Positions 7,773 to 29,460 of a stretch of DNA of 31,834 bases are shown here, in pieces (position 1 is the first letter of the stretch; each line of letters opens with the position of its first letter). This DNA is from a virus. The notes below the pieces were generated by a model. It did not search any database and was not told the DNA's origin. It saw nothing but the letters and a program-made list of their open reading frames with translations. A program made the translations under genes and the position numbers. The DNA lies in IMG/VR virus record IMGVR_UViG_3300036785_000636, positions 1 to 31,834 of that record. One strand, 5' to 3'.

Positions 7773-8044
7773 TGCCAGGTCACCCTCTTGGTTCGGCGCA
7801 AGTGGGCGAGGGCGCGACGGTTGTTCTCATCCACCGCCCACTGGCGCACGATTGCGTAATCGTCGGGCGGAACGCGACCCGGGTGCGCTTTGCGCCATTG
7901 TTCGAGGAAGACTTTGCGTTCTTGCGCCACCATGAACAGGTGCAGGTCGACGTCGCTCGGATCGGGCTCGAACGGGTACGCCTCCCGCCAATAGGCCAGG
8001 CAGGCCTGCTTGCGAACTTTGACGCGTTCATCGTCAGCGGTCAT
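7769..8044 (-). CDS. Hypothetical phage protein, 91 aa
   Basis: It overlaps its neighbours by 4 nt on both sides (7769-7772 and 8041-8044), a hallmark of a coupled operon. The product is charged and aromatic-rich (ACLAYWREAYPFEPDPSDVDLHLF; KVFLEQWRKAHPGRVPPDDYAIVRQWAVDENNRRALAHL), probably helical and soluble, with a basic C-terminus (RRTKRVTWQ). No recognised domain. A second minus frame over the same DNA (7780-8031) gives a Ser/Arg-rich shadow and is discounted. Function unknown; nucleic-acid binding is possible from the basic end but is a guess. Confidence 0.75.
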   Translation of the reverse strand: MTADDERVKVRKQACLAYWREAYPFEPDPSDVDLHLFMVAQERKVFLEQWRKAHPGRVPPDDYAIVRQWAVDENNRRALAHLRRTKRVTWQ

Positions 8045-8277
8045 TGGTAAAATTGTCCGACATCCATGAGTAGAAGCTCATCAACCCCATAGACCGCCCG
8101 CTCGCCGCAGGCCTCACACGTGTACTTGCGCGCGTCAGGCTCGCAGCCGCCCTGCTCATGGCCGCAGGCGGTGCAAAAGCCGGGGTCGTCGAGGCTCGTC
8201 ATACGCCGTTCGACCGCCTCCAGGAGGCGGTCGGCGGTGATGCTGGAATGGACCTTCAACTTAATTTTCTCCGCCAT
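8041..8277 (-). CDS. Small zinc-ribbon protein, 78 aa
   Basis: The product carries two CxxC knuckles, CTAC (Cys35, Cys38) and CEAC (Cys54, Cys57), separated by 15 residues with one further Cys45, so a zinc ribbon is very likely. The N-terminus (KIKLKVHSSITADRLLEAVERRMTSLDDPGF) and the DARKYTCEACGERAVYGVDELLL segment resemble a small protein I have seen in many alphaproteobacterial prophages, with no assigned function. ATG 8277 has no Shine-Dalgarno. It overlaps a tiny upstream ORF that does have one, suggesting coupled initiation. It is the first full gene of the minus-strand operon. Role in nucleic-acid or protein binding is inferred. Confidence 0.85.
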   Translation of the reverse strand: MAEKIKLKVHSSITADRLLEAVERRMTSLDDPGFCTACGHEQGGCEPDARKYTCEACGERAVYGVDELLLMDVGQFYQ

Positions 8278-12790: not shown

Positions 12791-13299
12791 TCAAAATCGA
12801 AATCACCGCCGCCAGTCTAACCGACCTGATCCAAGACCTGACCGCCAGCTTCCCCGCTCTCGTGGCTCCCGCTCGCCCGGCGGCCGCCACAGCCGTGAAT
12901 TTCACGTTCGCCGAAGACCTCGATACGCCCCTCAAGCCCGACGACCCCGACGCAAGGCCCGAGCCCGCCTTCGCCACCCCACAACGCCCCAAGTCGGACG
13001 GCGACGGCGCCGAGGCGCCTGTGCCGGCCGGCGCCGCCCCCGCGACCCCGGCCAAGAAAGGCAAGCCGAAGAAAATCGAACCCGAGCTGGTGACGATTCC
13101 TGACTCCTCACCAGCGATCGACCGTGTAGCCTTGATCAAGAGCTTGACCGACGTCTACCAACACGGCGGCCAGGACATCAAAGAGCGCATCATCGCCTTT
13201 CGCGACGCGCAGGGCGTGCAGCGCCTGAAAGACCTCAAAGACGACATCCTGCCGCAGGCGATGCAGCTCCTGACCGAATTGCAGGCGCTGACCCCGTGA
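12787..13299 (+). CDS. Hypothetical two-part protein with disordered linker, 170 aa
   Basis: GTG 12787 is preferred: it overlaps the previous stop and follows GAGGAGAGGAAA, whereas an upstream in-frame extension is Arg-rich shadow sequence. Residues 1-40 begin MIKIEITAASLTDLIQDLTASF. Residues 50-105 are a Pro/Ala/Lys-rich linker (ATPAKKGKPKK). Residues 115-170 form a helical domain (RVALIKSLTDVYQHGGQDIKERIIAFRDAQGVQRLKDLKDDILPQAMQLLTELQ). The C-terminal domain resembles one found in other phage replication regions, with no function known to me. A scaffold or DNA-binding role is possible. GTGA overlap with the next gene. Confidence 0.75.
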   Translation: MIKIEITAASLTDLIQDLTASFPALVAPARPAAATAVNFTFAEDLDTPLKPDDPDARPEPAFATPQRPKSDGDGAEAPVPAGAAPATPAKKGKPKKIEPELVTIPDSSPAIDRVALIKSLTDVYQHGGQDIKERIIAFRDAQGVQRLKDLKDDILPQAMQLLTELQALTP

Positions 13300-14042
13300 T
13301 CCGCATTCTGTCTTGGTTTTCGTGCGGCGCAGCGTCAGCGGTGGCGACAAAGCTGGCGCTCGCCGAGCACATTTATGTGACGCCGGTTTATTGTGACACC
13401 GGCGCCGAGCATCCTGACAATCGGCGTTTTCTCAAAGATTGCGAAATCTGGTTTGGCGATCCTGTGATCATTCTGCATTCAGAACGGTACGCCGATACCT
13501 GGGATGTATTTGAGCGCCGCCGTTATCTGGCGGGCGTCGAAGGCGCTTTATGCACCGTCGAGATGAAAGTCATGCCCCGGCTTGAGTTTCAACGCCCCGA
13601 CGATGTTCATGTTTTCGGCTACACGGCTGACGCCGCCGACGTTAGCCGCGCTCAACGGCTGCGCGCCAATTATCCAGAACTGACAATTGAGACGCCACTC
13701 ATCGAACGTGGGTTAACCAAGAAAGCCTGTTTGGCGTTGCTTGACCGAGCGGGCGTCCCGCCGCCGGCGATGTACGCTTTGGGTTTCACCAACAACAACT
13801 GCATCCCATGCGTGAAGGCCACCAGCCCGAATTATTGGGCGCTCGTGCGCCAGAAGTTTCCGCTCGAGTTCGAGCGCATGGCCAAGCTCGCCCGCGAACT
13901 GAACGTCCGCTTATGCCGGATCAAGAATGTTCGCCGGTTCATCGACGAAATTCCCGAGAATTGGCCGACGAACAATCCAATCGCGCCAGCGTGCGACTTC
14001 CTTTGTCACCTCGCCGCCCCTGACCTGGAGGATGTCGTATGA
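13296..14042 (+). CDS. PAPS-reductase/ATP-pyrophosphatase family phage protein, 248 aa
   Basis: The N-terminal strand-loop LSWFSCGAASAVATKLAL (residues 5-22) is the variant PP-loop of N-type ATP pyrophosphatases; YCDTGAEHPDN and FGYTADAADVSRAQRL are also typical of the PAPS reductase family. Conserved cysteines occur at 169 and 172 (NNNCIPCVKA) and at 233 and 237 (ACDFLCH), a four-Cys set seen in phage members that could hold zinc or an iron-sulfur cluster. Cys86 lies in CTVEMK. Family members adenylate or sulfurate substrates, including tRNA and DNA, but sulfate reduction itself is unlikely without the rest of the pathway. Modification of nucleic acid or nucleotides is inferred from the replication-operon context. 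GTG start overlaps the prior stop. Confidence 0.85.
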   Translation: MIRILSWFSCGAASAVATKLALAEHIYVTPVYCDTGAEHPDNRRFLKDCEIWFGDPVIILHSERYADTWDVFERRRYLAGVEGALCTVEMKVMPRLEFQRPDDVHVFGYTADAADVSRAQRLRANYPELTIETPLIERGLTKKACLALLDRAGVPPPAMYALGFTNNNCIPCVKATSPNYWALVRQKFPLEFERMAKLARELNVRLCRIKNVRRFIDEIPENWPTNNPIAPACDFLCHLAAPDLEDVV

Positions 14043-19327: not shown

Positions 19328-21646
19328 ATGGCGAAACACGTCGATTATGTCCTCGATTACGCGTCTATTCTGCTTCCCGGCATCCCTCACGACGCTGTGC
19401 TTTCCGCCTTCACCAAGGTGACCCTGGAGAACCGCGGCAAGGTTCCCGGGGTCAAGAACGGCGACGGCTCATGGACCGGACTGCCGAACTGGCCGCGCCT
19501 CCCGCCAGCGACTCTGCTCGACGCCGTGCGGTGGGACGGCATGGGCGCGGTCCTCGGTTTCCGCCTCGGGATCGACGGCTATTTCCTCGTCGATGCCGAC
19601 CTCGACACGTCTGCGGCCAGCGCGGCCGCGCTGGCCATCATCCTTCAACACGCCGGCGAGGGCGCGGCGATTCGACGGGTCGACCATCCCGAGCATTTTC
19701 GCTTCAGTTACCTCGGGCGGGTCAGCGACGGCCCAGCGCCCAAGTACCGGCGTTTCGCCTGCGACGGCGGGCATATCGAGTTCAAGGGCTCGGGCGCGTA
19801 CTCGGCCATTCACGGCGTCCACAATCGAAGGCTCAGGCCTTACGTGTGGGACAACGACCCCCTCGACGTTCCGGTCGGGACGATTACGCTCGCGCAGCTC
19901 CAGGCGCTCATGCAGGCGTTGAGCCTCGCCTTGCATGGGGAGGCGGCGCCGATTGCCGGAAAGGCGACGCGCTCCGATAACGCGCTTTATCACCCACCAA
20001 TGCAGTGCTCGATCGAGCAACTGGATCGGGTTCTGGCGATCTTACCCAACGACACTGTTTTCTTTGAACCTTACGAAAGGTTCGAAGCTATGGGTTTTGG
20101 CATTGCCGGCGCGACGGGCAAATCCGCGGCCGGGCGTCAGCGCTGGATCGATTGGTGCGGTCAGGTTTTTCAGGAACAGGAAAACAAACCTGAGGACTTT
20201 TGGGCGTCGATCGAAAACCCACGCTTTGGTTATCCGCGCTTGTTGAAACTGGCTTTTGAGCGAGCGCCGGAAGAGGCTCTAGCCCTCGTTCAGGAAGAAT
20301 CGCGATTTGCGTTCGCTGACGACCTCGACCAAGCGACGATCGCGACCGGCGCCGAAGCGGCGGAAGAGGCGGCGCGGGTTCAAGACGACCTGGTCGCTGA
20401 AGCGTTCGCGGCGAGCGTAGCCGGAGGCATGCGCTATGTCGCGGTTTCGGGAAAATGGTTGGAGTGGCGCAGCGCGCATTGGGTGGAGGACGCGATTCTG
20501 CGGGTTAATTCTTTGGCGCGAAGGACATGCAGGAGGGAGCGAGTGAAGAGAACGAGCATGGCGACAATGGTCAACAAGGTCTTGGCGTTAGCGAAGGCCG
20601 ACCCCCGGTTAGCGGCCACAGCCGATCAGTGGGACCGCAACGACTGGCTGCTCAATACGCCTGGCGGATCGGTCGACCTGAAGACTGGGGTCATGCGTCC
20701 GCATGACCGCGAGGATTATTGCACCAAGATGACCGCGGTCACGCCGCAGGGCGATTGCCCGTTGTTCAAGGCTTTTTTGCGCCGAATCCTGAATGATGAC
20801 GCCGAGCTGATCGCTTTCGTCAAACGTACGATCGGCTATTGCCTGACCGGGGATACGTCAGAGCAAGTCATCTTGTTCAATCATGGTCTGGGGCAGAACG
20901 GCAAGACGGTGTTGATGTCGACGATCGCCGGCATGCTCGGAAGTTATTGCCTCTCGGCGTCGATTGAGACTTTCACTGAAAGCCGCAGCGATCGTCATCC
21001 GACTGAGTTAGCCCGTCTGCAGGGGGCGCGGCTGGTGATTGCTACCGAGACCGAGGCGAATCGGTATTGGGCGGAGAGCCGGCTCAAAGAATTAACCGGC
21101 GGCGAGCGCATCACCGCGCGCTACATGCACAAGGACTTTTTCACTTTTCAGCCCAAGTTCAAGCCCTGGATCTCGGGCAACCACCGGCCGCGGCTGCATA
21201 GCATCGGTCAAGCGATGCGGCGCCGGGTGTTCTTGATCCCGTTTGAAGTTACAATCCCGGATAAGGATCGGGATTTTGGTCTTACCGAAAAATTGAAAGC
21301 GGAATGGCCAGGCATTCTCGCGTGGGCGATCGAGGGCTGCCTAGAGTTTCAGGCCGTGGGTTTGCAGCCGGCGCGAGCTGTGGTGCAGGCGACTGATGCT
21401 TATTTCTCAGAGGAGGACGCCTATGCAAATTGGTTGATGGAATGTTGTGAAATTGATTACAGCTCGCAGGTTCAATCGATGGCCTTGTTTAGCTCATGGA
21501 GCGATTGGGCAGAACACAATCAACGTCCGCGAGACAGCCTTAAGCGGTTTTATGCCGAGATGGGTCGACTTGGGCATATCCCAACTCATGTTAGAACAGG
21601 CAGCGTTTTCAAGGGTTTACGCATCAAACTCAGTTTCGAAGTGTGA
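19328..21646 (+). CDS. Primase-polymerase / D5-type SF3 helicase, 772 aa
   Basis: The frame is open from 19049, but ATG 19328 with GGAG 6 nt upstream is chosen because the earlier part lies inside the methylase-like gene. The N-terminal 230 residues look like a PrimPol domain: DGYFLVDADLD supplies the metal-binding Asp89/Asp91(/93), and YLGRVSD...RFACDGGHIEFKGSGAY is typical. A PriCT-like helical region follows (residues 240-330). The C-terminal half is a D5-N/SF3 helicase with Walker A GLGQNGKT (Lys526), LVIATETEAN as Walker B and ISGNHRP as sensor/motif C. It would open the origin, prime and unwind DNA. A symmetrical inverted-repeat element follows 2 nt after the stop. Several stretches are lower in GC than the polymerase. 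Confidence 0.92.
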   Translation: MAKHVDYVLDYASILLPGIPHDAVLSAFTKVTLENRGKVPGVKNGDGSWTGLPNWPRLPPATLLDAVRWDGMGAVLGFRLGIDGYFLVDADLDTSAASAAALAIILQHAGEGAAIRRVDHPEHFRFSYLGRVSDGPAPKYRRFACDGGHIEFKGSGAYSAIHGVHNRRLRPYVWDNDPLDVPVGTITLAQLQALMQALSLALHGEAAPIAGKATRSDNALYHPPMQCSIEQLDRVLAILPNDTVFFEPYERFEAMGFGIAGATGKSAAGRQRWIDWCGQVFQEQENKPEDFWASIENPRFGYPRLLKLAFERAPEEALALVQEESRFAFADDLDQATIATGAEAAEEAARVQDDLVAEAFAASVAGGMRYVAVSGKWLEWRSAHWVEDAILRVNSLARRTCRRERVKRTSMATMVNKVLALAKADPRLAATADQWDRNDWLLNTPGGSVDLKTGVMRPHDREDYCTKMTAVTPQGDCPLFKAFLRRILNDDAELIAFVKRTIGYCLTGDTSEQVILFNHGLGQNGKTVLMSTIAGMLGSYCLSASIETFTESRSDRHPTELARLQGARLVIATETEANRYWAESRLKELTGGERITARYMHKDFFTFQPKFKPWISGNHRPRLHSIGQAMRRRVFLIPFEVTIPDKDRDFGLTEKLKAEWPGILAWAIEGCLEFQAVGLQPARAVVQATDAYFSEEDAYANWLMECCEIDYSSQVQSMALFSSWSDWAEHNQRPRDSLKRFYAEMGRLGHIPTHVRTGSVFKGLRIKLSFEV

Positions 21647-21647
21647 T

Positions 21648-21745
21648 TGTGACACGAGTGACAGCATGAAAGTAAAGTACTTCCCCGCGCGCGTATACGC
21701 ACGCGCGGGGAAGTGTCATAGGTTGGTGGTGTCACATCTGTCACA
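21648..21745. repeat. Nested, co-centred inverted repeats: origin or operator candidate
   Basis: Outer arms TGTGACACGAGTGACA (21648-21663) and TGTCACATCTGTCACA (21730-21745) are inverted copies matching at 13 of 16 positions. Each arm consists of two (A/T)GTGACA-type boxes 9 nt apart. Inside lies a perfect 13-bp stem, ACTTCCCCGCGCG (21679-21691) / CGCGCGGGGAAGT (21702-21714), with a 10-nt loop containing GTATAC. Both repeats share the same centre, 21696/21697. It lies immediately after the helicase-primase stop and before ATG 21783. Confidence 0.8.
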
Positions 21746-28926: not shown

Positions 28927-29460
28927 ATGATGAACGCTGCAGAATGGGCGGACGTCCTGCGCCAGTCGGCGCCGGACGGCAAGCCGTGGATCATCGACGG
29001 CCTGGCCGAGGCGATGCCCGTTCTGGAGCGCGACTACGGGATCGACACCGTCGATCGCCAAGCACACTTTCTGGCGCAGATCATTCACGAGAGCGATGGT
29101 CTGCGCACCACCCAGGAATATGCGACGGGTCAGGATTACGAGGGGCGCAAGGCGCTCGGCAATGTCGAGCGCGGCGACGGCGTGCGCTATAAAGGTCGCG
29201 GCCTGATTCAGTTGACCGGCCGCGCCAATTATCGCGCCGCCGGCGACGCGCTCGGTTTCGACTACCTTCAAGAGCCGCTGCGGGTTGAGCGTTTCCCGCA
29301 CGCCGCGCTGGTCAGCGGCTGGTTCTGGCGCACCCACGCCTTGAACCGCCACGCCGACGCCGACGACATCGAGGCGATCACTCGCGCCATCAACGGCGGC
29401 CTGACCCACCTCGAGCGGCGCGTGGCGGTGCATGAGACGGTGCGAAAGGCGCTCGCATGA
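28927..29460 (+). CDS. GH19-type endolysin, 177 aa
   Basis: The segment AHFLAQIIHESDGLRTTQEY carries the catalytic Glu55/Glu64 pair expected of glycoside hydrolase family 19 (chitinase/lysozyme fold), followed by YKGRGLIQLTGRANY and the GWFWRTHALNRHAD helix. The enzyme would cut the glycan strands of peptidoglycan at the end of infection. No signal peptide or SAR-like anchor, so export must rely on a holin. The gene starts 1 nt after the stop of the repeat protein; ATG 28930 is an alternative start. A three-helix holin-like protein is encoded 290 nt downstream. Confidence 0.92.
   Translation: MMNAAEWADVLRQSAPDGKPWIIDGLAEAMPVLERDYGIDTVDRQAHFLAQIIHESDGLRTTQEYATGQDYEGRKALGNVERGDGVRYKGRGLIQLTGRANYRAAGDALGFDYLQEPLRVERFPHAALVSGWFWRTHALNRHADADDIEAITRAINGGLTHLERRVAVHETVRKALA

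Follow-up and report, generated by a model that had tools for sequence, protein, structure and literature searches.

The primase-helicase gene and its surroundings

The window analysed here, meaning the whole stretch of 31,834 nucleotides, is a 31.8-kb record from a tailed phage, whose replication block encodes an SF2-type helicase, an exonuclease, a family A DNA polymerase, a methyltransferase-like protein and a PrimPol/SF3 protein. The record additionally has tail-fibre and endolysin genes. A PAPS-reductase-like gene (13296-14042) is located between the exonuclease-side module and the polymerase, and a gene for a GH19 chitinase-type endolysin occupies positions 28927-29460.

The PrimPol/SF3 protein (Table 1) matched DNA primase in PHROG (1.9e-120), with the primase models spanning its Prim-Pol part, and D5_N (2.4e-28) and DUF5906 (1.5e-10) in Pfam; the Pfam match to Prim-Pol was sub-threshold (20.5 bits, relative to a cut-off of 22.8). 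The model of its C-terminal half (pLDDT 91.7) had the SaPI5 primase-helicase as a top structural match (Z 30.0), and also matched the structures of African swine fever virus PrimPol and poxvirus D5. Hexamers have been solved for the SaPI5, African swine fever virus and poxvirus D5 proteins, and double hexamers for the viral ones. The AF2 model of the C-terminal winged helix (pLDDT 87.8) matched RFX DNA-binding domains as well as the origin-binding domain of phage P4 (1KA8; Z 9.0, 2.3 A over 76 residues).

Table 1. Features of the primase-helicase gene and of the site that follows it, in positions of the window.
Feature	Position	Strand	Remark
PrimPol-type primase + SF3 (D5-like) helicase, proposed initiator	19328..21646	+	772 aa from ATG; open from GTG 19049
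C-terminal winged helix, proposed origin-binding domain	21395..21643	+	residues 690-772
Whole mirror-symmetric site	21648-21745		98 bp; starts 1 nt past the helicase stop codon
Left outer initiator box (candidate), TGTGACA	21648..21654	+	from sequence
Left inner box, AGTGACA	21657..21663	+	9-nt pitch; pitch kept in relatives
Left arm of central 13-bp stem, ACTTCCCCGCGCG	21679..21691	n/a	perfect pairing
Alternating pyrimidine-purine tract, CGCGCGCGTATACGCACGCGCG	21686..21707		22 nt; Z-DNA-prone; equivalents in relatives
Right arm of central 13-bp stem, CGCGCGGGGAAGT	21702..21714	n/a	perfect pairing
Right inner box, TGTCACA	21730..21736	-	from sequence
Right outer box, TGTCACA	21739..21745	-	9-nt pitch

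Anatomy of the mirror-symmetric site

The original prediction had described the letters, positions and 9-nt spacing of the boxes in each arm, and a perfect 13-bp stem with a 10-nt loop that shared the centre 21696/21697 with them. We confirmed all of these elements, with exact coordinates and a common centre at 21696.5. The box letters are TGTGACA in three of the four boxes and AGTGACA in the fourth. The same centre is shared by a feature that the prediction had missed, an uninterrupted alternating purine-pyrimidine run that is the longest in the 31.8-kb record. The stem is likewise the record's longest perfect short-loop stem, the runner-up having 12 bp, and the core is 58% GC.

The original prediction held chance co-centring to be unlikely. 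The four boxes scored 27/28, which was never equalled when the region was shuffled 600 times with its dinucleotides kept (best shuffle, 25). The single-strand folding energy of the region gave z = -5.9. A scan of the whole 31.8-kb record, which may be a fragment, found the paired-box word, which we had been advised to seek elsewhere in the genome, nowhere else, and no second box array was present in these 31.8 kb. Searches for Rfam and tRNA matches returned none. No DNA-level match to the 190-bp region was found in plasmids or phages, as expected because the boxes change fast. Cumulative GC skew, suggested as a further check, lent no support to an origin, as there was no switch at 21.7 kb.

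Conservation in relatives

We gathered loci from viral and genome contigs by helicase protein similarity alone, and scored mirrored box pairs whatever their pitch. Among lags 5-15, the first 77 loci singled out lag 9, and only in the 260 nt past the stop codon (52/77); in the control regions of the same loci (downstream, in-gene and shuffled), lag 9 was found in 0 of 68-77. The final sample of 98 loci was made non-redundant at 90% and left out every locus that had been found via box letters. An element with a pitch of 9 or 10 was present in 75 of these 98 loci, relative to 2 of 98 shuffles (any lag), and a stricter score retained 63 loci and no shuffles, with score thresholds that were set on the same data they were applied to.

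The conserved layout consists of two boxes per arm, mirrored, at a 9-bp (rarely 10-bp) pitch, with a median start 18 nt past the helicase stop codon and a median gap of 62 bp between the arms. Box spacing and common centre, the features whose conservation the prediction had made decisive, were thus kept in most relatives, beside the helicase gene, and similar elements were not scattered through the control regions. On the tree of relatives, the pitch (9 vs 10) changed about 10 times. The elements with a 10-nt pitch in L089, L102, L122, L166, L255 and L303 accompany the winged-helix motifs SRWL and, mostly, RLHGG, which these loci share.

Box letters vary among relatives (GTGACA, CTGACGC, GAAGG, GGCAC and others). 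The Acidithiobacillus phage AcaML1, which is the nearest named relative by protein (47% identity), has the same layout in other letters directly after its primase gene: TCTGACGGG TCTGACGGG TCTGACGGA, the centre CGCGCGCGCG, then CCGTCAGAT CCGTCAGA. Among the hosts in which genome loci were found are Alpha-, Beta- and Gammaproteobacteria, Acidobacteria, Elusimicrobia and Planctomycetota, and an archaeal virus, of Methanoculleus, also carries the element.

We also worked in the opposite direction: viral contigs were scanned for this layout with the box letters of the window, which gave at least 80 contigs. Where an SF3 helicase of this kind was detectable, the element lay within 500 nt past the gene in 19 of 25; in one of the three far cases (L021) the helicase gene appears to be split across the contig ends. 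In other matches the gene ahead of the element encodes a VapE-like SF3 helicase or a RepA-like AAA_25 helicase. In L005 (8207-8303) and L018 (2505-2601), arrays with many copies of the GTGAC box, the same letters, lie 9 nt after the RepA-like AAA_25 helicase, which is unrelated to SF3. Near-identical AT-rich arrays of the class GTGACAAGTGTGACA...TGTCACGTTTGTCAC were seen in L009, L011, L013, L016, L043 and L047, and also in L058, L067, L068, L071 and L082; no ORF of at least 150 aa ends within 700 nt of them on either side.

In several phages with related helicases, namely phiC31, Kieran, Tbone, Dubu, GMA4, phiSHEF5, phi_270 and KidneyBean, the region after the gene had no such element, which is therefore not universal. 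The box scan found no four-box form after the gene of Bordetella phage BMP-1, which is close to BIP-1, for which a 3' stem-loop has been reported (PMC4234260). Locus L003, related via the N-terminal primase half only, had no mirrored boxes; about 480 nt past its helicase gene (7839-8119) are repeated (AT)CCGCAGAAAT(A) words, possibly another type of origin.

Composition of the core

The longest alternating run in 91 elements averaged 18 nt, compared with 8.4 in shuffles, and runs of at least 18 nt were present in 59% of the elements but in 0.01% of same-size windows from the same loci. Of the elements, 80% had a 14-nt alternating run or else an 8-bp stem, as did 3.3% of controls. The usual core in relatives is therefore a GC-rich alternating tract or a co-centred hairpin, and not an AT-rich melting region. 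The suggestion of boxes flanking a cruciform thus held in part: the boxes and stem are both present in the window, which has the alternating tract as well, but in most relatives the tract is alternating and CG-rich and no stem of such length accompanies it.

Alternation is absent from some Rhodobacteraceae loci, where the core is instead a co-centred stem of 8-20 bp with TTATC(CACC)/GATAA at its borders. Of 91 cores, 22 had TATC in each half, where 1.2 were expected. In four loci of Rhodobacteraceae type (L035:458-558, L198, L204 and L193), an inner mirrored motif, CCTTATCCACCGTATA / TATACGGTGGATAAGG, lies between the boxes; it is one letter from a DnaA box.

Covariation of box letters with the helicase

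In 87 aligned cases, box distance was correlated with the distance between C-terminal domains after the motor had been removed (partial r 0.197, 1 in 1000 permutations), whereas the corresponding values were -0.045 for the motor given the C-terminus and 0.007 for the region before the motor. Fifty-five sliding windows of 15 residues, over 450 residues, placed the peak in the last 30 residues, at 744-758 and 752-766 (0.26 and 0.285; permutation p 0.0005), and in closely related pairs the partial correlation rose to 0.47. Nineteen of the 30 strongest corrected residue-base couplings fell in residues 700-772, which make up 16% of columns. The residues that covary with the boxes are mainly at 739-759, with wing residues 750-757 coupled predominantly to bases on the 5' side, and recognition-helix residues 739-742 to those on the 3' side, of the box.

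Single residue-base rules were suggestive (739 R/K vs C/G, Fisher 2e-4; 753 W vs C), and were non-significant by independent pairs on the tree, an underpowered comparison (5.5 pairs vs 1, p 0.125). Because shared descent is incompletely removed by permutations and these single-position tree tests were non-significant, the covariation is strong but statistical. At that strength, box letters appear to track the last ~30 residues of the helicase, in its winged helix, and not its motor. The primase-helicase is thus a more probable reader of the boxes than the 115-aa coiled-coil protein encoded downstream.

The PrimPol of NrS-1 uses GTG/GTGA templates, and the boxes of the window contain GTGA. We rejected a general role of the boxes as primase recognition sites, as those of many relatives (CTGACGC, GAAGG) have no GTG.

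Comparison with known replicons

The crenarchaeal plasmid pRN1 encodes, in ORF904, the same PrimPol-SF3-winged helix order, with an element of similar size just after the gene; the window likewise has all three domains in one protein, and an inverted-repeat element of ~100 bp (98 bp) 3' of it. The 100-bp stem-loop of pRN1 is essential for replication and sufficient in cis, is described as lacking an iteron structure, and was not specifically bound by the full-length protein in vitro (PMC4234260). When we re-read this stem, we found a mirrored box pair with a 9-nt pitch, TGTCCATAGTGTCC...GGACACTATGGACA, and 62 bp between the scored arms. It differs from the window in its AT-rich core and its box letters. 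The stem-loops of both pRN1 (L085:5090-5182) and pRN2 (L183:62-156) can be read as mirrored tandem boxes at a 9-nt pitch.

Origins of phage-inducible chromosomal islands (PICIs, which comprise SaPIs and the PICIs of E. coli), identified in a plasmid test, are immediately 3' of the pri-rep initiator and have two iteron sets around an AT-rich centre (PMC6092414), and the SaPI Rep recognises its origin, in downstream iterons, by its C-terminal domain (PMC7581432). The window resembles these in placing two box sets around a centre directly 3' of the proposed initiator, which is itself similar to the SaPI5 protein. However, its core is not AT-rich, having a 22-nt alternating CG-rich run, there are exactly two boxes per arm at a 9-bp pitch, and the genome belongs to a tailed phage, which encodes tail fibres and its own DNA polymerase, and not to a satellite island. 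The isolated C-terminal domain of SCCmec Cch2 binds its direct repeats (PMC7581432), which also form an iteron site after a self-loading helicase; there, direct repeats alone matter, the helicase is of another lineage, and the primase is a separate protein.

Streptococcus thermophilus phages of the Sfi19/Sfi21 type have mirrored tandem boxes, AGTTACTTAGTTACT...AGTAACTAAGTAACT, 62 nt after a D5-like primase gene, although with a pitch of 8 and an AT-rich core. This region after the primase has a known role as an origin (Sfi21 phage-encoded resistance). The window has features of initiator-helicase origins, namely an initiator gene directly upstream and mirrored boxes round a centre that are kept in relatives, but is unlike an iteron plasmid origin of the RepA/DnaA type, as its core has no AT-rich DUE; TTATCCAC-like motifs are present only in some relatives.

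Discussion

The anatomy computed here, the conservation and position of the element, and the covariation of its boxes with the winged helix lead us to conclude that the site is very probably a cis-acting origin, or initiator-loading site, of the upstream PrimPol/SF3 protein, a reading that also draws on the analogous replicons. The plausibility that had been assigned to a replication origin after this gene has thus been strengthened by the conservation in relatives and by the covariation. The place and logic of such an origin are known already; distinct here are the fixed two-plus-two mirrored boxes and a different core.

The initiator might instead only be loaded or controlled at this site while synthesis begins elsewhere, as with the crr of phage P4, which we consider unlikely but the most credible of the alternatives. 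In P4, crr directly follows the alpha gene and contains type 1 boxes facing either way, of which one pair has a 9-nt pitch, and the origin-binding domain resembles the winged helix of the window. P4 has a separate annotated origin and needs crr besides it, so that a loading site need not equal a start site. Against this reading, the record has no second box array, and the pRN1 stem-loop alone restores replication when moved (PMC4234260). The P4 system differs in that crr is made up of two direct repeats of 120 bp, each with five boxes, where the element of the window is single copy in the record, and in the bacterial-type (Toprim) primase of the alpha protein.

That the mirrored boxes bind a dimeric regulator of the downstream gene (the helicase, the 115-aa protein or another), with no role as an origin, was the main alternative in the original prediction, and we now regard it as very improbable. 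The element does lie between the helicase stop codon and the next start codon (21783), a -35/-10-like match covers the left boxes (9/12, weak and about chance level), and the 115-aa protein has a weak bZIP-like match. However, no relative of that protein turned up in the phage collection, box letters covary with the helicase's own winged helix, and the element stays in place though the downstream genes differ (a polynucleotidyltransferase in AcaML1, a Holliday junction resolvase in CL2). Furthermore, a promoter operator needs neither ~62 bp between its arms nor a Z-prone core.

It is extremely improbable that the site terminates transcription or forms an RNA structure behind the helicase gene, since the 13-bp GC-rich stem, despite a terminator-like score on the minus strand, has no T-run after it on the coding (+) strand, no plausible gene before the T-rich tail on the minus strand and no Rfam match, and most relatives have the alternating tract without a comparably long stem. 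We give just as little credence to a recombination, packaging or mobile-element end (an attachment site, dif, or a MITE with terminal repeats): the 98 bp with 16-bp terminal inverted repeats resemble a small MITE, but the element is single copy, is fixed beside the initiator gene in relatives, whose control regions lack it, and its box letters change while its architecture stays.

Under the origin reading, we infer by analogy that the helicase would bind the site as two hexamers and that replication would start bidirectionally. The C-terminal winged helix would bind the boxes with two adjacent subunits per arm, at the 9-bp pitch, and two helicase assemblies would nucleate ~66 bp apart on the duplex, facing opposite ways because the arms are mirrored. 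ATP-driven pumping of duplex towards or through the two rings could then strain the core, and the alternating CG/CA, self-complementary sequence might adopt a non-B form (B-to-Z or cruciform) and open, after which the fused PrimPol would prime both strands. How the core melts is a hypothesis only: we suppose that it may be meant to leave B-form under torsion. Our tentative model, which we hold to be possible but somewhat doubtful as a whole, is that the core is a dedicated structural-transition element, a GC-rich alternating tract that takes the role of AT-rich melting DNA and opens via Z-DNA or a cruciform under the torsion of two facing SF3 helicases, and that a fast-evolving lock between winged helix and boxes provides replicon specificity.

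This element may provide a single recognisable anatomy for origins across a large phage group in which most start sites lack annotation, and it would tie these phages to the pRN1, P4 and PICI replicons. Its alternating CG core contradicts the usual expectation of AT-rich melting at origins, and allows a direct test of how a self-loading SF3 helicase begins to open the duplex. The covariation of boxes and winged helix suggests that the specificity of these initiators follows a code that can be read, and their pairing may be what would keep adjacent replicons independent when they use the same machinery.
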